Part shown: positions 44,745-53,946 of the stretch, piece by piece
How the letters are laid out: every line of letters begins with the position of its first letter
How positions within the stretch are numbered: the first letter of the stretch is position 1
NCBI GenBank assembly: GCA_031269875.1
Contig: JAISYM010000039.1
Span: 1 to 55,498, forward strand
DNA: 55,498 bases
Direction of reading: 5' to 3'
Source of the DNA: Synergistaceae bacterium
Lineage (GTDB): Bacteria; Synergistota; Synergistia; Synergistales; Synergistaceae
Made by a program: the position numbers and the translations under genes
Notes under the pieces: generated by a model
The model's database searches: none
The model's input: only the letters and a program-made list of their open reading frames with translations
What the model was told of the DNA's origin: nothing

Positions 44745-45065
44745 ATGATGCGCAAAACATACAAAAGCGATTTAATGGCTGCCATTCACGAAAACGCTCA
44801 AGCGTTATTTGAAATAGGCGCTATTGATAAAAAGACCATGAGGGATTTCGACGTAGCTTGCCTTACGCCTGTCAAAGCATTCACAGCAGAACAGATAAAA
44901 GCGTTGAGGGAAAGGGAGTGTGTATCCCAGCCAGTTTTTGCATCATATTTGAACGTAACGAAAGGGATGGTTTCGGCATGGGAGCGAGGGATAAAAAGTC
45001 CAAGCGGTCCAGCGCTTCGCTTGTTATCGCTAGTCGATAAAAACGGGCTCGAAACTATTGCCTGA
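44745..45065 (+). CDS. XRE-type HTH protein resembling HigA/NadS antitoxins, no toxin partner
   Basis: A 106-residue DNA-binding protein with an N-terminal dimerisation-like segment (AAIHENAQALFEIGAIDKKTM) and a C-terminal helix-turn-helix (LRERECVSQPVFASYLNVTKGMV and SAWERGIKSPSGPALRLL), the usual layout of NadS/HigA-like antitoxins. These are normally encoded just after a RelE/HigB-type toxin, but here the upstream gene is the aldolase with a terminator, and downstream is a 497-base gene-poor stretch. ATG 44745 or 44748 follows GGAGGT. It may be an orphan antitoxin or an independent regulator. Confidence 0.75.
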   Translation: MMRKTYKSDLMAAIHENAQALFEIGAIDKKTMRDFDVACLTPVKAFTAEQIKALRERECVSQPVFASYLNVTKGMVSAWERGIKSPSGPALRLLSLVDKNGLETIA

Positions 45066-45562
45066 CACAAATGCGTGTCCATTATCGCTGTATGCCTGCT
45101 AATCCCTGAATTCCTGCAGAACCAGGAAGCTTGATTTTGAACAACTCAATGTTTCTGAAAAAAAGACGATAAACAGATTAAGAGGAAGAAGGCCCGCTTT
45201 TTCATTGTATCAGCATGGGCCGGTTCAGTAGTGTCTAGTAAAAAAGCCGAGATAAGTATTCTCAAGCCTTTACACAATTTTTTCGCGGAAATCGGTACAC
45301 CCCTCCTCGCACTGTATATTTGCGTTTTTTAATCCAGGTATGCTCGTTTGAAATCGAAATTGATATGGTGTCATAGCGGAGCGCACCGGTCGCTCATGTT
45401 GAGTTGCGAGTGCATTAAAATGTCAGGTATAAACATTTTTATTTGATATTTTATTAATATATTGTCAATCAAAGACATTGTTTTCTATATCTTTACTAAC
45501 TAAGATTAAGCAACTCTGCAGGGTGATCGGAAAATTTATTCATAAACTGGAGTGATTTTTTA
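45066..45562. other. 497-base AT-rich gene-free stretch at the left edge of the AT-rich module
   Basis: No intact gene found. GC content drops sharply here compared with the genes to the left. Stretches around 45230-45340 (TTTACACAATTTTTT and nearby) have the look of an insertion-sequence end, but no transposase or matching second end was found, so I do not call one. The 130 bases before 45563 are very AT-rich and hold several possible -10 boxes for the following gene. Confidence 0.55.
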
Positions 45563-46693
45563 ATGAGTAAAAACAAGGTGTTGTTGTTGGGTATTGGGGA
45601 TATAGGCAAGCAAGTTTTGAACTTTCTCGTTAGAGATCCCAAATGCCCAGAATTGCTTGTGGGTGATTCAAATGAGGAGTTTGGAAGAAAACGTGTCAAT
45701 GCAGCGATATCGAACGCTACTGTCGCAGGGCTTTACCCAAAGGTGACCTTCGAGAAGTTTGATCTCTCTAATGTTGACAGGACCAGCGAACAGGTCGCGA
45801 GATTTAAACCCGATGTCGTAATCAACGGAACAGTCATGCAGACTTGGCATGTGATCCGCGCTCTCCCTCAAGAAGTTTATCAGCAATTAAGCCGTGCTAC
45901 CCTTGGCGCGTGGACACCCTGCCAAGTTGCCCTTGCGTATAAAATGATGCAGGCAATCAAGGAATCAGGGGTTCCCGCTCGTGTTGTCAACACGGCGTTC
46001 TCTTGTGAAACGAATCCGATGCTTGCCTCGGTCGGTCTTCCGGCCGATATCGGCATCGGAAACGTGGAACTGCTTCAGCCGGGATGTCGGATGCTCGCAG
46101 CAGAGAAACTGGGTGTACCGATCAGCATGGTTCAGGTCTACCTTGTCGTTCATCATCTATGGTGGGTCTACCGCAGGGAGTTTGGCTATAGGGAAGGACC
46201 GTATTGGATGAAGGTCATGCTCAACGACAAAGACGTGACTGGACAGTTTGACACAAAACGACTCCTTAGTGACTCTGATGAGTTGTATAACCCAGGGGCC
46301 GATTTCACGGTATTTTCGGCAGCGTCCACTATAAAGAATATGTACGCGTTGATGGATCCTGTGGGAATTTTCACTCACTCTCCCGGACCAGAGGGACTGC
46401 CTGGCGGGTACCCGGTGTTCATTAGCCAAGAGGGTGCGAAAGTTTGCTTACCTGAAGGCATAACTCTTAAGGAAGCGATTGAGATCAATGAGAGGTCGCA
46501 ATATCTCGACGGCATAGCTAAAATCGAAAAGGGCGGCACAGTACACTATTCTGACTTCACGGCTGAAATTCTGAAGAACATGTTGAACTTTGACCGTCCG
46601 ACCTGGAAAGTTCAAGAGAGCTACGAAGTGGCAAAAGAGCTTATGAGCAAATATCGCGAATTTGCGACAAAACACGGCGTTAAATTTGACTAA
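45563..46693 (+). CDS. saccharopine-dehydrogenase-like NAD(P)-binding oxidoreductase
   Basis: A 376-residue oxidoreductase. Its N-terminus is a Rossmann fold (VLLLGIGDIGKQVLNFLV, with G-x-G-x-x-G at about 10-15, an acidic VGDSNEE, and RFKPDVVINGT), as in saccharopine dehydrogenase and homospermidine synthase-type enzymes. The C-terminal half is the alpha/beta substrate domain (LLQPGCRMLAAEKLGV, GIFTHSPGPEGLPGGYPVFI). It probably oxidises or reduces an amino acid or imine adduct; the substrate is unknown. ACTGGAG precedes ATG by nine bases. AT-rich codon use and the adjacent amino-acid-type symporter and PucR regulator suggest one transferred catabolic unit. Confidence 0.75.
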   Translation: MSKNKVLLLGIGDIGKQVLNFLVRDPKCPELLVGDSNEEFGRKRVNAAISNATVAGLYPKVTFEKFDLSNVDRTSEQVARFKPDVVINGTVMQTWHVIRALPQEVYQQLSRATLGAWTPCQVALAYKMMQAIKESGVPARVVNTAFSCETNPMLASVGLPADIGIGNVELLQPGCRMLAAEKLGVPISMVQVYLVVHHLWWVYRREFGYREGPYWMKVMLNDKDVTGQFDTKRLLSDSDELYNPGADFTVFSAASTIKNMYALMDPVGIFTHSPGPEGLPGGYPVFISQEGAKVCLPEGITLKEAIEINERSQYLDGIAKIEKGGTVHYSDFTAEILKNMLNFDRPTWKVQESYEVAKELMSKYREFATKHGVKFD

Positions 46694-46819
46694 CGGAACA
46701 AGCTGGGAAGGTAAGTTTGTTATCACCTGCCCAGCTTGTTTTCAAAAATACCCAACGCGCCTATTCAGATAAGTATGGGTTATATACCGTAAAATTAAGC
46801 ATTTGTGGGAGGGATGATT

Positions 46820-48082
46820 GTGAAATATGCAGGTTTGACGACGCGTATTTTTGTAGGCATGCTGATTGGTATCGTGTTCGGTTTGATTATGAATAATATA
46901 CCTTCGGGCTATGTGAAGGACACTCTGTTTCTTGATGGTCTATTAGCGGTTGTCGGAAGCGGTTTTATACGGCTTTTGATGATGTTAATAGTTCCAGTGG
47001 TTTTCTTCTCATTGGCTTGTGGAACGGCGTCACTTGAAGATGTAAGGACACTGGGCAGGATCGGGTCTAAAACGGTTGGTTTCTACCTGACTACGACAGC
47101 CATTGCCGTTACGATAGCTCTGATATTGGCGAACGTCATATCGCCTGGCGCTGGCGTTGATACATCGAAAATCCTTGTCAGCGAACCAAAGATATCAGAA
47201 CAGGTGCCGTTAGTAGAAGTATTCTTGAATATCTTGCCGCAAAACGTTTTTAATGCTCTTAGCACAGGCAACATGTTACAAATTATTGTATTTGCGATTT
47301 TTATTGGTCTCGCGGTCAGTGTCGCCGGGGATAAATGCGGGATGATAGGCAAATCCTTCAGTCAATTTAACGAGCTATTTCTGACGCTCACGTCTATGAT
47401 AATGAACCTTGCCCCTTACGGAGTTTTTGCGCTGGTTACGCGAACTTTCGCAAAAATGGGTTATAGCGCAATGATGCCTTTAGCTAAATATATTTTCTCG
47501 GTTCTTCTTGGGCTGATAATTCACGCCTTTTTTGTTTACGGAGGCATGTTGAAAGTTTTCACTCGCCTAAGCATTCTGACGTTTATAAAAAAAGTGACCC
47601 CCATAATTACGGTTATCTTTTCTACTGCAAGTTCTCTTGCCACTCTTCCAGTGACTTTGGACGTAGTGGAAAAACGCTTGGGCGTTTCTAATCGTATTTG
47701 TTCGTTTACCATTCCGCTTGGAGCTACTGTTAACATGGATGGAACAGCTATAATGCAAGGCGTGGCATCTGTCTTCGTTGCGCAGCTCTACGGAATTACG
47801 CTTACGACTGGCGCGTACTTGACTATCATTGTTACCGCAACTCTCGCTTCTATAGGCACTGTAGGTATTCCAGGATCAGGGCTGATAATGCTTTCAATGG
47901 TTCTTACATCAGTCGGCCTTCCCATAGAAGGAATCGCTATGATCATGGGGATTGATCGCTTTCTCGATATGTGCCGTTCCGTGATTAATATAATGGGAGA
48001 TGTAGTCTGCACACTAATCATTGCAAAAAGCGAAAACGAATTCGACCAAAAAGTTTTTGACGACGTCACAATCTCTAACTAA
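46820..48082 (+). CDS. dicarboxylate/amino acid:cation symporter (DAACS family)
   Basis: A 420-residue secondary transporter of the GltP/DctA/SstT family. It shows the serine-rich hairpin FSTASSLATLPVT, the cation-binding NMDGTAIMQG, GIPGSGLIMLSMVL and RFLDMCRSVINIMGD, with eight membrane segments and two re-entrant loops expected. Substrates of the family are glutamate, aspartate, serine or C4-dicarboxylates. GTG 46820 is preferred: the GGGAGGG ribosome site abuts ATG 46814 and is six bases from the GTG. It follows the oxidoreductase by 126 bases and has AT-rich codon use like its neighbours. Confidence 0.92.
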   Translation: MKYAGLTTRIFVGMLIGIVFGLIMNNIPSGYVKDTLFLDGLLAVVGSGFIRLLMMLIVPVVFFSLACGTASLEDVRTLGRIGSKTVGFYLTTTAIAVTIALILANVISPGAGVDTSKILVSEPKISEQVPLVEVFLNILPQNVFNALSTGNMLQIIVFAIFIGLAVSVAGDKCGMIGKSFSQFNELFLTLTSMIMNLAPYGVFALVTRTFAKMGYSAMMPLAKYIFSVLLGLIIHAFFVYGGMLKVFTRLSILTFIKKVTPIITVIFSTASSLATLPVTLDVVEKRLGVSNRICSFTIPLGATVNMDGTAIMQGVASVFVAQLYGITLTTGAYLTIIVTATLASIGTVGIPGSGLIMLSMVLTSVGLPIEGIAMIMGIDRFLDMCRSVINIMGDVVCTLIIAKSENEFDQKVFDDVTISN

Positions 48083-48104
48083 TCACATAAACTGCATTAT
48101 TTAG

Positions 48105-48134
48105 TTGACAACGGCTATTTTTTTCAAATAAAAC
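48105..48134 (+). promoter_or_regulatory. possible promoter of the PucR-family gene
   Basis: TTGACA at 48105-48110, an 18-base spacer and TAAAAC at 48129-48134, just before an inverted repeat. Other AT-rich -10-like boxes closer to the gene (TAGTAT near 48216) are alternatives. Confidence 0.4.
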
Positions 48135-48136
48135 AT

Positions 48137-48177
48137 GCAAGCTTTCGTGATATTCGCTCATATCCACGAAAGCTTGC
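48137..48177. repeat. inverted repeat between symporter and pucR
   Basis: GCAAGCTTTCGTG (48137-48149) faces CACGAAAGCTTGC (48165-48177) perfectly, extended by ATAT/ATAT with one bulged base. No T-run directly follows, so it may be a terminator of weak type for the symporter gene or an operator/leader structure for the pucR-like gene. Confidence 0.6.
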
Positions 48178-48275
48178 TAGGTAGAATAACTATAGTTTTT
48201 TTAGGTTAATATATAGTATCATGTTTACTGTTGATTTATACAGTAAATAAATTTTCCCCTTGTGAGGGCTAGATC

Positions 48276-49875
48276 ATGATCGTTAGAGATCTTTTATTAC
48301 CTCATCTTTTCCCGGATTTCAAGCTAGTTGGCGGTGCCAATGCACTCGACAACGACATCAGAAACGTTGCCGTGCTGGATACTCCTGATATGAGTTATTG
48401 GGTTCAAGGCGGTGAATTTTTAATCGGTAATGGATTTATATTTAAGGATACTATCGAGGAATTCCCAATTTTTTTACGAAAACTTTGCGTTAAAGAATAT
48501 AGCCGCCGTTGGAATAAAATTTGATCGATTCACGGCGTTCATCGATATGTCAGAGATAGCTTGTATCTCTGACAGGCTGGAACTTCCGATATTTCGCATC
48601 CCTTTTCAATATCGCTGGACCGATATTATCGTTAAAGTACTCAACGAGATGGATCGATTAAGTGAAATAGAAAACACTCTGATGAGAGATAAGTCATTCC
48701 TTGCGGAAATAGATAACATGGGTGCTCTTTTGCAGGTATTGTCATCACGAGTGGACAGACCGATTTATTTTTCTACTTATTCTACAAATACAGGGACTAT
48801 GCTCTGGCCCAGTTGCAAAGTGTCTTTAAAACCTGGTCAAACTGCTGAGGATTATAAAAACTCAAAAATTGAAACAACGCGTTTTTTGTGCGGATCATCT
48901 GATTTTGTAGGTATCCGTGAAGAAAAGAGATTTTTTAACGGAATAACTTATTCGAGGATTTATTCCACCCACCCTCCTAATGCGGTCGAATTACATGTAA
49001 TATCCGCATATGCGGATCAAAAACTTACATCGTCTGAAGAAAAATTTATTATGCGTGGTTTATTAGCACTAAAGGTTCTGATGGCCGAACAAGCGCGTCT
49101 CTCAAATCAACAGCACTCAGAAATTTCACAAACGCTTGAAAGGTTACTGCTCGGTTCATACAGCGATCCCAAAATAATCACACAAACGCTGAGAAAGTGG
49201 GATTTGACCGAAATTATCCCATGCAGGATAGGGGTAATACCTGTGCAAAACGCTAACTCTAAATTGATAGGTTACACTGATGTTCCTTATAGATTCAGTT
49301 GTAAAATCGGGAACTTGCATGTTCTGTTGATTCCGTGGGAAACCAGAATCGATTTTGAAGAAAGTAACACTACGATGGAACTCATCAAAAAATACAACGT
49401 GCCAGTAGCATTGGGCTCGATAGCAGAAACGCTCGAAGATATCCATGCGTCTTTTAATGATGCACAGAGAGTTATGGCATATATGCAAAAGATAGGGTTC
49501 GGAAATAAGGTGATCATATATGAAGAAATCGTTTTAAATATTTTGTTATGCGAAATTGTGGAATCTGATGACGCGTCGCGAATATGGCAAAAATACTGGC
49601 GACCTCTAAAAACAGTGAAGCCATCGCTCCGCGTCAAACTCGAAGAATTTCTCTCTTGTCTGGTGGAATGTGGCTTCAACATAGCAGAATGTTCCGAAAG
49701 GCTAGGAATTCATTACAACACTGCCAGAAATTACGCCGAATCCATAGAAAGGATTCTAAACTTGTCACTGCGAGATTTCAATTCACAGGTATGCATTTTA
49801 ATTGCTAAGAACATTGACTTTCCGCTAAGACAATCATCGTTGTCGGAGTTGTGCGTTTCCTCAAAACGGTTATAG
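48276..49875 (+). pseudogene. PucR family transcriptional regulator, frameshifted
   Basis: PucR-type activators respond to metabolites such as purines or amino acids. The first frame (48276 on) encodes the N-terminal PucR sensor (LVGGANALDNDIRNVAVLDT, GGEFLIGNGFIF) as far as FLRKL at 48485. The sequence then continues in another frame as ALKNIAAVGIKFDRFTAFID onward to 49875. Dropping one T at 48484-48486 gives FLRKLALKNIAAVGIK, exactly the family pattern. The rest has a GGDEF-like middle region and the C-terminal PucR helix-turn-helix (CGFNIAECSERLGIHYNTARNY). The gene is thus complete apart from one extra base: a recent mutation or a sequencing error. It likely controls the oxidoreductase and symporter upstream. 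Confidence 0.85.
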
Positions 49876-50014: not shown

Positions 50015-50230
50015 ATGGCAAATGAGATAGCACATGGGATTGATACTCAAGAACACTTAAGAACCGGATATATTGAGGTGGAAGTCCTGTTCCTAGGGCG
50101 ACCACGGAAACTTGACCCAGAAATAGGGAAAAACGCCATGTTCCGGCATTACAGAATGATTACCGTCGTAAGCCGGTCGCGGACAGCGGAAGAATTCCTG
50201 GAGCACATCTCCCGCCCCCGGCGCGGCTAG
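50015..50230 (+). CDS. short hypothetical ORF at the right edge of the AT-rich module
   Basis: A 71-residue frame with a weak GAGAAG ribosome site. No family recognised (ILFLGRPRKLDPEIG-like middle, charged C-terminus). It spans the point where base composition returns to GC-rich and its stop overlaps that of the convergent gene, so it could be a real small gene, a remnant joined at the module boundary, or a chance frame. Confidence 0.25.
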   Translation: MANEIAHGIDTQEHLRTGYIEVEVLFLGRPRKLDPEIGKNAMFRHYRMITVVSRSRTAEEFLEHISRPRRG

Positions 50231-51174
50231 TTCATGAAGTGAAAGAGTATGCCGATGATTATGATCAGCAGCGCCGCGCCTACGGCGCCGAGCAGTATGT
50301 AGCGCGGGAGTTTGCTGTTTGCGGTTTCTTGACGCGGCGCGTTGTCGGGGCCTGTTTTTATCCAGATATTTCCCTGTACCTTCATCACTCCGGAAATGCC
50401 CTCCGCGAGCGACATGCTTATAACGGAATTTCCGAACTCGTTCGTCTTGACTCCGGTCACGCCGCCGCTTACGACGCCGTTAAAATTCGGCAGGTTCGAC
50501 TTGCAAATTTTGTAGAATGGAGAATCCTCGGGCAGACGGCAGCAGATCTCCTGGCCTATGGAGAGCTTCGACGCCGGCAGGCCGGCTACAGGGTCTATCA
50601 CTGCGTTGCATTCGACGAATATTTCGTTAGTCTCGTCCGCGTTTTTGCCATCGGCCGCCTGATCCGCTTCGCGGTTCCCCTCCTCGGGGCTGTCCCATTT
50701 TGCCCCGTCTGACGGTTTCCATTTAAGCTTTGAGAGCAGGGCGGAGACATCTTCCTCCGAGGCGCTTATTACCTCGGCGAATGTTATGGCGCTGATTTCG
50801 AGGTCGAAGGAGCAGAAGTGCGTAATCGCTCTCTCTATTGCCTTCGCGTCGAGCGCTCTCTTCTCGGTCACGAATACGCGCTCTGCACTGATAAAGTCAT
50901 GCAGGCGTTTCTCATACCGCGGCAGACTATCGTTGTTTTCTTCGCTGTCCTCCGAGTCCTCCCGCTGTGTCCCTGGCGCGTTCAAGAGAGCCGGCAGGTC
51001 GCTCAGCGGAATGTTCATATCTATCGGATCTGTTGTGAAACGCGTCTTCAGAAAACGCAGATTCATACCTTCCGACACTCCGAGGAAAAGGGCGTTGACC
51101 GGCATGGAATTTTTTTCGTGTCCGTTTATAAAGCCCTTTATCAAAAAAAACTTGAGGTTTCGGTCCGCATCCAT
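50227..51174 (-). CDS. tail-anchored hypothetical protein, paralogue of the next gene
   Basis: A 315-residue protein I do not recognise. Its N-terminal domain (about 1-150) reads KFFLIKGFINGHEKNSMPVN and DLEISAITFAEVISASEEDV. A charged, low-complexity linker spans about 155-180. A C-terminal domain (about 185-275) contains FVECNAVIDPVAGLPASKLS, CCRLPEDSPFYKI and the ISMSLAEGISGVMKVQG segment. A single membrane helix lies at the very end (about 293-313, YILLGAVGAALLIIIIGILF), so the protein is anchored by its tail with the rest in the cytoplasm. ATG follows AGAGGC. It is 19 bases downstream of its paralogue; both are transcribed away from a TIR gene. Confidence 0.7.
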   Translation of the reverse strand: MDADRNLKFFLIKGFINGHEKNSMPVNALFLGVSEGMNLRFLKTRFTTDPIDMNIPLSDLPALLNAPGTQREDSEDSEENNDSLPRYEKRLHDFISAERVFVTEKRALDAKAIERAITHFCSFDLEISAITFAEVISASEEDVSALLSKLKWKPSDGAKWDSPEEGNREADQAADGKNADETNEIFVECNAVIDPVAGLPASKLSIGQEICCRLPEDSPFYKICKSNLPNFNGVVSGGVTGVKTNEFGNSVISMSLAEGISGVMKVQGNIWIKTGPDNAPRQETANSKLPRYILLGAVGAALLIIIIGILFHFMN

Positions 51175-51193
51175 TTTAAAGCCTCTTTAATCT

Positions 51194-52180
51194 CTATTGA
51201 AAAATATAGTATAAAACGGACACAGCGGCGATTGCAACGACTATACCGGCGGCTATAAAAATTAACTCCGGAGGAATTACCAAGGGCGACATTCGGCTGC
51301 GGAATACGCTCCCGGCTCCTTTGTACGACCCGTCAGCTTCTTTTTCTCTCACCACCATCACGCGAACCTTTCCGGAGAGCTTCATGACTCCCGCGACCCC
51401 GTCGGACAGGGCAAGGCTCACGGTCGCGGTTCCTATATCGCTTATCATTATACCGGTGACTTTGCCGGTAATGAGACCGTCAAAGCTCGGGTTGTTTTTT
51501 GCCAATAACTTGTAAATCACGGAATCCGCGGAGAGTCTGCAGTAGACGTTGTATCCGGCGGCAAGTTCGTTCATCGCTATTCCGCCCACCGGGTCTAGTA
51601 CGGGTTCGCAGCGGACGAACAGATCCTTGCTCTCCGTCTCGTGGCCGCCATCCTGCGGTTCACTCTCGGTGTTTTCCTGTTTATCCTTCTTTTCCTGCGA
51701 CGACGGGAAGCTTGCCTCAGCGTTCGGCGAAGTTTGGGCGCTTGTCTGCTCCTTCTTTTGGAAGAAGGTCATGTCATCCTCGCTTGCGTTTGTAAAACTC
51801 ACGAAACAGACGGCTTTCAGCTTGAGTTCATCGAGGCAGAATCTGCTAATAGCCTGTTCGGCTTGCTTTGCGTTTAAATTTTTTGCTACGTGGGTAAGTA
51901 TCAAGCTCGTCTGCAGAAACTTGTAAAGCCCCTCCTCATGGTGGATAAGGAGAGGATCCCTGTTTTCGTTTTTTTGCGCTTCTTCGTGAAGTGGGAGCAG
52001 ATCCTTCCAGCTCGTGGACTTGTCCATTTCAAGCTGGTCGAAATTTACGCTTGTAAACCTGACATCCCGCCTCGTCACGAGGGATATAAAAGTTCCGTTG
52101 ACGCTGTGCCCTCTGTCATCCTTCGCGTCTATATAACCTTGGACGATGTAGTAGCTCTGAGGGGCAAATTCGTTGTCCAC
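51194..52180 (-). CDS. tail-anchored hypothetical protein, tandem paralogue
   Basis: A 328-residue protein with the same plan as its downstream neighbour: N-terminal domain (SYYIVQGYIDAKDDRGHSVN, LKLKAVCFVSFTNASEDDM), a polar linker rich in Gln, Glu and Ser (about 150-190), C-terminal domain (FVRCEPVLDPVGGIAMNELA, YCRLSADSVIYKL, VSLALSDGVAGVMKLSG) and a terminal membrane helix (LIFIAAGIVVAIAAVSVLYY). The shared FV.C....DPV.G and A.S-like SL.GV.GVMK patterns show duplication. GTG 52180 is favoured because GGAGG is six bases away; GTG 52189 abuts that site. It is divergent from the TIR gene with a 129-base shared intergenic region, suggesting joint control. Confidence 0.7.
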   Translation of the reverse strand: MDNEFAPQSYYIVQGYIDAKDDRGHSVNGTFISLVTRRDVRFTSVNFDQLEMDKSTSWKDLLPLHEEAQKNENRDPLLIHHEEGLYKFLQTSLILTHVAKNLNAKQAEQAISRFCLDELKLKAVCFVSFTNASEDDMTFFQKKEQTSAQTSPNAEASFPSSQEKKDKQENTESEPQDGGHETESKDLFVRCEPVLDPVGGIAMNELAAGYNVYCRLSADSVIYKLLAKNNPSFDGLITGKVTGIMISDIGTATVSLALSDGVAGVMKLSGKVRVMVVREKEADGSYKGAGSVFRSRMSPLVIPPELIFIAAGIVVAIAAVSVLYYIFQ

Positions 52181-52309
52181 ACACAACACCTCCGGAATGT
52201 TGATGCAGAAACTATACTACAAAATCGTGAAATTGAATTATAATGTGTTAGCGAATAATCACGTATGGTGTGCGATAATCGGTCGAGGGGCAAGCGGGGA
52301 GGTAAGCCA

Positions 52310-53830
52310 ATGTCTGAACAGGAGACAGTCTGTAACGTCGTTCCGTGCCGCTTGGATGAAGAATCTTTTATTTTTGTCAGCTACGCCCATCATGATTCCG
52401 ATGCGGTGTTCCCGATAATAGAGGATGTCGGCTCAAAGGGCTACGCAATATGGTACGACAAGGGCATCAGTATCAGCTCTACCTGGACCGATGAAATCGC
52501 TACGGCGATACTGAACTGCGCTATCTTTGTCATGTTCATAACGAAAGAGTCGGCGGAGTCGATGTATGTCAGGTCTGAGATAGAGTTCGCCCTGAACAAT
52601 AGGGTGAAGGTCATGCCTGTCTACCTCGATGGGATGGATGTCCTGCCGCCCGGGCTTGCCCTCGGGTTGAGCGCGACGCAGGGAATAACGGACGCGAGAG
52701 ATCCGGAGTCCGCGGCGCGTCAGATATGCGCGGCTCTCGAATCGAATGGCGTGGCGAGGAAGGACGCCGGAAAGTCCGCTAATATCAAGTACAAGAGGCG
52801 TATGAAAAACTCGCGGGCCGAATTGGGGAAACTTTTGCGATTGGCGGCGGCTGTAATCGCTTTGATCGCAGTCGCTTTTGTACTCTCCGGCTTTATCTCG
52901 CGTTCCGATGCAAAAAGGGACAATTACAGCTTCAAGATCGAAAAAAGAGTATTTGCCCCCGCGGAACCGATTCAGGTCGAGCTGCGGGCGGTCACTCAAA
53001 AAATGATCGAGCGGGGCGCGATCATCGGTGTCGCGCGCGCCTCTGACAAGCAAGGGGACTATATTTCTTACGAGTTTATAGACGAGGACGTTCCTGGGAT
53101 CAAACTGCGCGCTCCCTTGGAAGATGGTGATTATGTCGTGCGCGGCTACGGCAGCGGCAGCGAATTCTCGGAGTCGACGCTTGTCGGCGCCGTACCGTTC
53201 ACCGTGAGCGGGGACTCGTCCGGGACGTTCGGACTCGCGATAGACAGGCGGGAATACGCGCCGTCCGAGAATATCTTGGTGAGCGTGACGGGCGTGCCAA
53301 AGTACATGCTGGATGACGGGGCGGAGGTCATCCTCTCCAAAGCCGGTGAAAAGCCCGGAGAATACATAGTCTATATGGTCATAAGCACGAGGGACGAACA
53401 GTTTACGTTCAGCGCCCCGCTTGACCCGGGCGAGTATGAAATGAGAGCTTACAGCAACAATGACGTTTACGCCGAATCGACTGTCGCGGCGCGTGAGAAG
53501 TTCAGCGTCTTAGGAAAAGAGGCGTATCCATTCGTCATCGAGCCGGATAAATCGAGCTACGCGCCGGGGGCACAAATCGCGGCTCGTGTCTTGGGAGTGG
53601 CGCACAACATCGGGGGGGGCGCGATTCTGGCGTTATCGGCCGCGGGCTCCGGGCCGGGGGAGTATATATCTTCGGAGCGCATATATGAGAAGAACGCTTC
53701 CATTACGCTCAAAGCGCCTTCGGAACCGGGAGAGTACGAATTGAGAGGGTATTGGGACAGGAACGTTTTGACGGAGTCCGGATTGGCCGCTTGCATCCCG
53801 TTCAAGGTAGAGGATTTGGGGCAAGAGTAG
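52310..53830 (+). CDS. TIR-domain membrane protein with three tandem external beta-rich repeats
   Basis: A 506-residue protein. Residues about 18-140 form a TIR domain (FIFVSYAHHDSDAVFPIIED, YAIWYDKGISISSTWTDEI, AIFVMFITKESAESMYVRSE, RVKVMPVYLDG). Glu 90 sits where bacterial TIR NADases have their catalytic Glu. A basic stretch (KYKRRMKNSR) and one membrane helix at about 178-196 follow. Beyond it are three repeats of about 100 residues (near 206-305, 306-405, 406-506), each with a YAP-type opening, GEYI and a GEYE.RAY-like strand, then ES. The positive-inside rule puts TIR in the cytoplasm and the repeats outside. ATG 52310 follows GGGAGG; a TATAAT lies at 52239-52244. Bacterial TIRs often act in antiphage NAD depletion; here that is inference. 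Confidence 0.85.
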   Translation: MSEQETVCNVVPCRLDEESFIFVSYAHHDSDAVFPIIEDVGSKGYAIWYDKGISISSTWTDEIATAILNCAIFVMFITKESAESMYVRSEIEFALNNRVKVMPVYLDGMDVLPPGLALGLSATQGITDARDPESAARQICAALESNGVARKDAGKSANIKYKRRMKNSRAELGKLLRLAAAVIALIAVAFVLSGFISRSDAKRDNYSFKIEKRVFAPAEPIQVELRAVTQKMIERGAIIGVARASDKQGDYISYEFIDEDVPGIKLRAPLEDGDYVVRGYGSGSEFSESTLVGAVPFTVSGDSSGTFGLAIDRREYAPSENILVSVTGVPKYMLDDGAEVILSKAGEKPGEYIVYMVISTRDEQFTFSAPLDPGEYEMRAYSNNDVYAESTVAAREKFSVLGKEAYPFVIEPDKSSYAPGAQIAARVLGVAHNIGGGAILALSAAGSGPGEYISSERIYEKNASITLKAPSEPGEYELRGYWDRNVLTESGLAACIPFKVEDLGQE

Positions 53831-53838
53831 GGCGTATT

Positions 53839-53946
53839 ATGACGTACCTGACACCGACGCCGCGTTGCGGCCTTTCGATCACGGTCGACTGTCAATACGG
53901 CGCCGGCAATGCGCGAAGATTCGAAGTTGAAATGGGGGAATTTTGA
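53839..53946 (+). CDS. possible 35-residue ORF between TIR gene and aminotransferase gene
   Basis: ATG 53839 begins a 35-codon frame (MTYLTPTPRCGLSITVDCQY and on) ending in TGA at 53944-53946 where the aminotransferase begins. The ribosome site is poor. It could be a coupling peptide or a chance frame; no family known. Confidence 0.22.
   Translation: MTYLTPTPRCGLSITVDCQYGAGNARRFEVEMGEF

Follow-up and report, generated by a model that had tools for sequence, protein, structure and literature searches.

Bacterial TIR enzymes have mostly been studied as infection sensors inside the cell. The gene at 52310-53830 of the window, which is the whole 55,498-nucleotide stretch of Synergistaceae DNA analyzed here, raises the question of whether a TIR domain may be controlled from outside the membrane; if true, bacteria would have a parallel to Toll signalling that arrived at the same plan with the order reversed. 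A preliminary description had likened the gene product to an inverted Toll receptor, with external repeats, one membrane pass and an internal TIR domain. The features of the locus are as follows (genomes, contigs and loci are given below by our own handles, G, C and L).

52310-53830 (stop included), + strand: receptor-like protein of 506 amino acids with a TIR domain, a membrane helix and three repeats of the Ig/FN3/MG class (open reading frame, Pfam, AlphaFold2, hydropathy)
52364-52753, + strand: TIR domain, residues 19-148, predicted cytoplasmic (Pfam TIR_2; family profile matches Cat1, AbTIR and SARM1 structures)
52577-52579, + strand: Glu90, aligned with the catalytic Glu of TIR NADases (invariant in 13 TIRs; codon checked)
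52832-52897, + strand: predicted transmembrane helix, residues 175-196, N-in/C-out (hydropathy, charge bias, 15 relatives)
52922-53215, + strand: repeat 1, predicted extracytoplasmic, residues 205-302 (AlphaFold2, repeat alignment, structure comparison)
53222-53518, + strand: repeat 2, predicted extracytoplasmic, residues 305-403 (same three kinds of evidence)
53522-53815, + strand: repeat 3, predicted extracytoplasmic, residues 405-502 (same three kinds of evidence)
53856-53926, + strand: remnant of a DHH phosphoesterase gene, inside the 35-codon open reading frame 53839-53946 (86% nucleotide identity to the DHH gene of G145)

Domain layout of the TIR-repeat protein

The open reading frame was considered a real gene because GGAGG precedes its ATG and the protein has near full-length relatives (80, 71 and 63% identity). 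Pfam TIR_2 matched residues 21-136 (E 7.5e-18, 65.6 bits against a cut-off of 28), and a basic linker connects the TIR domain to the membrane helix. We aligned 13 TIRs, drawn from 31 TIR-matching open reading frames plus a TIR-TPR protein, and the resulting profile matched the structures of Cat1, AbTIR, TIR-STING, plant TIRs, Toll-like receptors and SARM1. Glu90 was invariant in all 13, including the 28%-identical TIR-TPR protein, and in the profile comparison it aligned with the E of AbTIR that we take to be the catalytic NADase residue, in agreement with the earlier proposal of Glu in the NADase position.

Pairwise dN/dS was estimated with an in-house script. Against G145 and G154, respectively, it was 0.16 and 0.14 for the TIR domain, 0.36 and 0.28 for the linker and transmembrane part, 0.33 and 0.31 for repeat 1, 0.13 and 0.24 for repeat 2, and 0.16 and 0.19 for repeat 3, all at sizeable synonymous divergence; synonymous sites were near saturation against G147. 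Such pairwise values are blind to whether constraint continued after the loss of the DHH gene from the window described below.

Hydropathy analysis found a sole hydrophobic segment, with the best 19-residue window at residues 178-196 (Kyte-Doolittle 2.77); the next-best peak away from the helix reached 1.52 and lies inside the TIR domain. The 30 residues before the helix window contain 11 K/R and 2 D/E, and the 30 after it contain 7 K/R and 5 D/E. Fifteen relatives have a comparable helix; in 14 of them the net charge is more positive on the N-terminal side, and L044 shows no bias. The window's repeats recur in TIR-less proteins with N-termini resembling signal peptides by eye, namely L049 (945 amino acids) and the FecR-domain protein L053. 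Because of the charge bias, the helix in the 15 relatives and the repeats in these signal-peptide-like proteins, the repeats are predicted to be external, and a single-pass, N-in/C-out layout is supported by prediction. The extracytoplasmic placement given in the preliminary description thus agrees with hydropathy and the positive-inside bias as predictors; one strong helix was found, and neither predictor pointed to cytoplasmic repeats or to a helix that does not cross. As a separate observation, the receptor-like TIR protein may have partners or ligands in the exported-looking products of L049 (8841-11675) and L053 (1061-2818).

The three repeats, each of 98-99 residues and together spanning residues 205-502, showed pairwise identities of 32, 39 and 39%. 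The repeat pairs scored 14.5-16 standard deviations above the shuffle mean, and 0 of 1000 shuffles per pair reached the observed score, which bears out the earlier remark that the repeats align with each other. AlphaFold2 was run on 13 sequences, consisting of the 11-row alignment A2 minus L051, which has a degenerate TIR, plus L050, L052 and L056. Each repeat was modelled with seven strands, at pLDDT mostly 75-95; the full model had a pTM of 0.46, with pLDDT of about 40-75 in the TIR part and mostly about 26-33 over residues 151-200.

Foldseek gave an FN3 chain as its first match and mixed FN3, S-layer, A2M/complement and Ig chains in its ranking. In the VIA comparison, the top match was the S-layer chain 7ptp (Z 9.9, rmsd 12.9), followed by many complement/A2M chains. 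Tight single-domain A2M/complement matches included 4rtd, at Z 9.6 with an rmsd of 2.7 over 89 residues, and 2p9r, at Z 9.2 with an rmsd of 2.5 over 84; close behind stood the Ig chain 5gni (Z 9.3), the FN3 chain 5n47 (Z 9.0) and the polysaccharide-lyase chain 5nok (Z 8.8, rmsd 2.4 over 78). The S-layer, Ig and FN3 alignments (7ptp, 5gni, 5n47) were longer and looser than the A2M single-domain ones. The models firmly place the repeats in the Ig/FN3/macroglobulin class of sandwiches, the class alone being firm; within the Ig-like class, macroglobulin is favored but not proved, because Ig, FN3, S-layer and polysaccharide-lyase domains lie within about 1 Z. Pfam A2M_BRD scored 15.5 bits in the 506-residue protein, below the cut-off of 22.7, and 23.9 bits, above the cut-off, in L049, where Arrestin_C, Y_Y_Y and Reeler scored higher and no single stretch passes alone. 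GCGEQ, the thioester motif of alpha-2-macroglobulin and complement, is absent from the 506-residue protein. Big and cadherin-type repeats were considered, and Pfam gave no match to either within the repeats. The preliminary designation as Ig-like therefore stands at the level of a seven-stranded sandwich of the Ig-like class and is refined to the Ig/FN3/macroglobulin class, with A2M domains among the best matches; of the three folds named for comparison, Ig found class-level matches, and Big and cadherin found none in Pfam.

With the TIR_2 match, one hydrophobic segment and significant repeats, the order of TIR domain, membrane helix and three repeats is as first described. TIR and repeats occur in one protein in 9 of 185 Synergistota genomes, with two more cut by contig ends, which fits the earlier view that a receptor-like TIR is uncommon, as far as Synergistota are concerned. 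Two genes, L050 7435-8634 and L052 947-2122, encode the linker, helix and repeats, and the stretch retrieved around each gave no match to TIR. An alignment of all relatives (A1, 23 rows) was too mixed for use. Another TIR-TM protein, L041 1155-2702, has an external part that looks, by eye, like that of a protein whose gene lies close to a CsgG-type gene in L085. The TIR protein had no match in 72,556 plasmid records, and neither the TIR nor the DHH alignment had a match in IMG/VR. A contig scan gave one relative, apparently the same contig as G147:C125, and it was counted once.

Pairing with a DHH gene in relatives and its loss from the window

In several relatives, the next gene downstream of the TIR-repeat gene encodes a DHH-type phosphoesterase; this gene and its remnant in the window are additions to the preliminary picture. 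DHH matches at E <= 1e-15 numbered 22, in 16 of 185 Synergistota genomes. Two of these, truncated by the start of a contig, leave no upstream neighbor to read. Among the 20 readable genes, a full TIR gene stands immediately upstream of 10 and a TIR fragment upstream of 1 (G097:C94), and 9 have no adjoining TIR, indicating that the DHH family has other uses. The divergent TIR-TPR protein (L089) escaped our own TIR profile and was picked up by Pfam, which was therefore run on the other upstream neighbors of DHH genes; in L090, an open reading frame overlapping the DHH gene was treated as spurious and the next gene was scanned.

The paired TIR genes span three architectures. DHH genes follow TIR-TM-repeat genes in five loci (G145, G154, G147, G158 and G148:C161, the last with one in-frame stop in the DHH gene), TIR genes with a multi-helix membrane part in four (G097:C179, G092:C320, G094:C70 and G098:C181), and the TIR-TPR gene in G148:C132, with overlapping codons (ATGA). 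The gap is 5 nt in G145, 11 nt in G154, 8 nt in G092:C320 and 12 nt in G094; the genes overlap in G147, and longer gaps occur in G158 (102 nt) and G097:C179 (roughly 130 nt). Nine TIR-TM-repeat genes have a readable downstream side, three more being cut by contig ends: four are followed by an intact DHH gene, one by an interrupted gene, one (the window's) by a remnant, and three (G097:C2; G159:C62, which is degenerate; and G146:C225, with only the last repeat on the contig) lack one. In G097:C2, a weak DHH-like match (E 4e-5) is separated from the TIR gene by about 4 kb and is not adjacent. Four of the five multi-helix TIR genes are paired, the exception being G096:C111. No DHH match was found near the other TIR genes L041 and L044, and the TIR genes of L042 and L043 end near a contig end.

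Seven genomes, picked for carrying the gene or the pair, contain 14 TIR_2 matches (2 below the cut-off), of which 7 stand beside a DHH gene and the window's beside the remnant. A match to the 506-residue protein was found in 14 of the 16 DHH genomes, compared with 11 of the 169 others (Fisher p 1.2e-12, with shared ancestry ignored; for G104, G146 and G149 the match is confined to the repeats). Except between the window and G154, comparison of the six pair loci and G097:C2 found no specific shared flanks (E <= 1e-8), only ABC ATPases.

The DHH protein matched Pfam DHH (E 8.1e-12), and its structure model (mean pLDDT 87) was closest to GdpP (E 1.8e-17), a RecJ-like protein, TM1595, Rv2837c and mycobacterial NrnA. 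The catalytic His/Asp motifs were invariant or at least 90% conserved over 17 sequences. The GGGH motif is intact in the long form of the protein and has its His replaced by Asn or Gly in six short forms, so the substrate of the short form, which is mostly the TIR-paired one, is uncertain. DHHA1 was below the Pfam cut-off or not listed, and the C-terminal part is PGDYG-like, clearly so in the long form and at 16.8 against a cut-off of 27 in the short form. The long form matched 18 plasmid records; the 15 listed were 26-28% identical over 43-45% of the query, and 14 of these are annotated NrnA. The PGDYG-like part of one DHH protein (L045 4617-6548) also matched the uncharacterized phage family phrog_419 (E 4e-11).

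The window has lost the adjacent DHH gene, apart from about 70 nt at 53856-53926 that correspond to DHH codons about 74-97, with 86% identity over 71 nt to G145 (L032 13665-13735) and a protein match to DHH at E 4e-9. A 40%-identical DHH gene is present elsewhere in the same genome (G000:C58) and may stand in for the lost one.

The immediate neighbors of the window's TIR gene are two proteins with no Pfam match (E <= 1) and one aminotransferase, and Pfam recognized no effector reading a TIR signal among them. The divergent tandem genes upstream (50227-51174 and 51194-52189) were considered as partners and rejected: matches at E <= 0.001, many of them weak and partial, occur in 85 of 185 Synergistota genomes, including genomes with no match to the TIR protein (G152, G153), and the tandem pair is present in many of the closer genomes. 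These two paralogues (50227-52189, - strand), widespread and uncharacterized, had no match in Pfam, and inspection by eye places a hydrophobic helix at the C-terminus of each. Between an aldolase gene and this pair, 44745-49872 holds a small gene that by eye is HTH-like, together with the genes of a saccharopine-dehydrogenase-like protein, a dicarboxylate symporter and a PucR-type regulator. The aldolase gene adjoins the pair in G154 (L033), and the difference is either an insertion in the window or a loss in G154. The window's TIR-repeat gene is 80% identical to that of G145, from another genus (L032), compared with 71% to the same-locus gene of its own genus in G154 (L033). This closer match to the other genus hints at horizontal transfer; the G145 assembly is given with 7% contamination.

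A proposed circuit and its rivals

We propose, tentatively and as slightly less likely than not, that the protein is a receptor-like TIR enzyme with type II membrane topology, and that a DHH phosphodiesterase acts on the NAD-derived signal it makes. The C-terminal repeats, outside the cytoplasmic membrane, would bind an external cue, such as a change in the envelope, a molecule from a phage or a host, or a secreted protein built from the same repeats. Binding would cluster the protein so that the cytoplasmic TIR domains oligomerize, and Glu90-dependent cleavage of NAD+ would yield an ADP-ribose-type nucleotide. In the relatives, the downstream DHH phosphodiesterase would then act on this signal, most likely by degrading it and so setting a threshold or a reset. 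A broader version is possible but doubtful: a TIR circuit with a dedicated nucleotide-signal phosphodiesterase, in which the DHH-PGDYG partner quenches the TIR-made signal and the TIR inputs (external repeats, multi-helix membrane part, TPRs) are swappable. If the quenching reading is true, cells would encode, in the DHH protein, their own off switch for TIR signals. Counting against the proposed account are the nine readable DHH genes with no adjoining TIR, the three of nine TIR-repeat genes that lack a DHH gene, the remnant in the window, the stop in the DHH gene of G148:C161, the altered GGGH motif of the short form, and the fact that Pfam recognized no effector for a TIR signal among the window's neighbors.

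The DHH protein could also be the effector, with a TIR-made nucleotide or direct contact acting on its PGDYG-like part and hydrolysis of c-di-AMP, nanoRNA or pAp halting growth. We consider this rather unlikely. Its solved relatives are named as c-di-AMP/pApA phosphodiesterases and nanoRNases, the extra C-terminal PGDYG-like domains could be sensory, and Thoeris, in the passages available, follows a plan of paired sensor and effector. However, the window keeps an intact TIR gene with its DHH gene gone, and an effector would be expected to be the last to go, an objection that weakens if the second DHH gene at G000:C58 serves. G097:C94, which keeps its DHH gene behind a broken TIR gene, fits either role. 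Overall, the DHH protein is more likely an off switch than an effector. Against degradation of the signal by a phosphodiesterase, the sole enzyme found described as destroying 2'cADPR/3'cADPR, in the text available, is a phage glycosidase. Ring nucleases, in the available part of PMC13148439, provide further precedent for signal-degrading enzymes.

It is improbable that the TIR domain is the scaffold of an envelope-signalling receptor that cleaves no NAD+, with the DHH enzyme acting on second messengers independently. The TIRs of animal Toll-like receptors are thought, according to the excerpts available, to be mainly scaffolds, and the degenerate TIR of L051 and the helix and repeats with no TIR match in the fetched stretches of L050 and L052 are in line with such a role, but the invariance of Glu90 in 13 TIRs and the profile match to NADase TIR structures argue against it. 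Co-inherited or mobile neighbors of unrelated function would account for the nine readable DHH genes with no TIR, for the pairs in which either gene is broken or missing, and for a genome co-occurrence inflated by shared ancestry. Set against this are the three TIR architectures and the short spacing or overlap in several loci among otherwise unshared flanks, which make mere neighborhood very improbable. The recurring phosphodiesterase partner opens to testing the question of whether TIR signals are ended by enzymes that bacteria themselves encode.

Comparison with known systems

The known bacterial TIR NADases (Thoeris ThsB, AbTIR, Cat1 and TIR-STING) are generally described as soluble and switched on from within the cell. 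The window protein has the TIR fold in common with them, and its Glu aligns with that of AbTIR, but here a membrane helix links the TIR domain to repeats predicted to be external. Membership in Thoeris found no clear support: NCBIfam ThcB4 scored 20 bits against 220, PADLOC ThsB gave a partial match of 20.4 bits, and the window has no adjacent ThsA-type effector gene. Pfam ThsB_TIR scored 22, just over its cut-off of 21.2 and far behind TIR_2.

A membrane-linked bacterial TIR alone falls within known variety, since the available text of a survey states that bacterial groups typically hold diverse TIR architectures (PMC7075850) and that of a review includes prokaryotes among the sources of short TIR proteins with transmembrane regions (PMC9153377). 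Neither a TIR-DHH pair nor a TIR joined to such external repeats was found in the openly licensed literature searched, in which we also found no paper on PGDYG, and the available passages of papers containing both "TIR domain" and "DHHA1" described no TIR-DHH pair.

Macroglobulin domains of alpha-2-macroglobulin and complement give tight single-domain fold matches to the repeats, with S-layer, Ig and FN3 chains scoring alike, and the window protein differs from those of alpha-2-macroglobulin and complement in having no thioester motif. GdpP, NrnA, TM1595 and Rv2837c have the fold and catalytic motifs in common with the DHH partner, which differs from them in its extra PGDYG-like C-terminal part and in the full TIR gene upstream in 10 of 20 loci. 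Animal Toll-like and IL-1 receptors likewise combine an external repeat or Ig-class array, one membrane pass and an internal TIR domain. Their ectodomain is N-terminal and their TIR domain C-terminal, whereas the window protein, with its topology as predicted, has the TIR domain first, then the helix and the repeats, and no LRR. The "inverted Toll receptor" of the preliminary description is an apt name for this layout, and shared descent with the Toll/IL-1 receptor architecture is not implied. Together, the layout and the neighboring enzyme of a nucleotide-signal-degrading kind suggest a sensing circuit with a paired, possible off switch, comparable to the ring nucleases and the DHH-DHHA1 nuclease of type III CRISPR.
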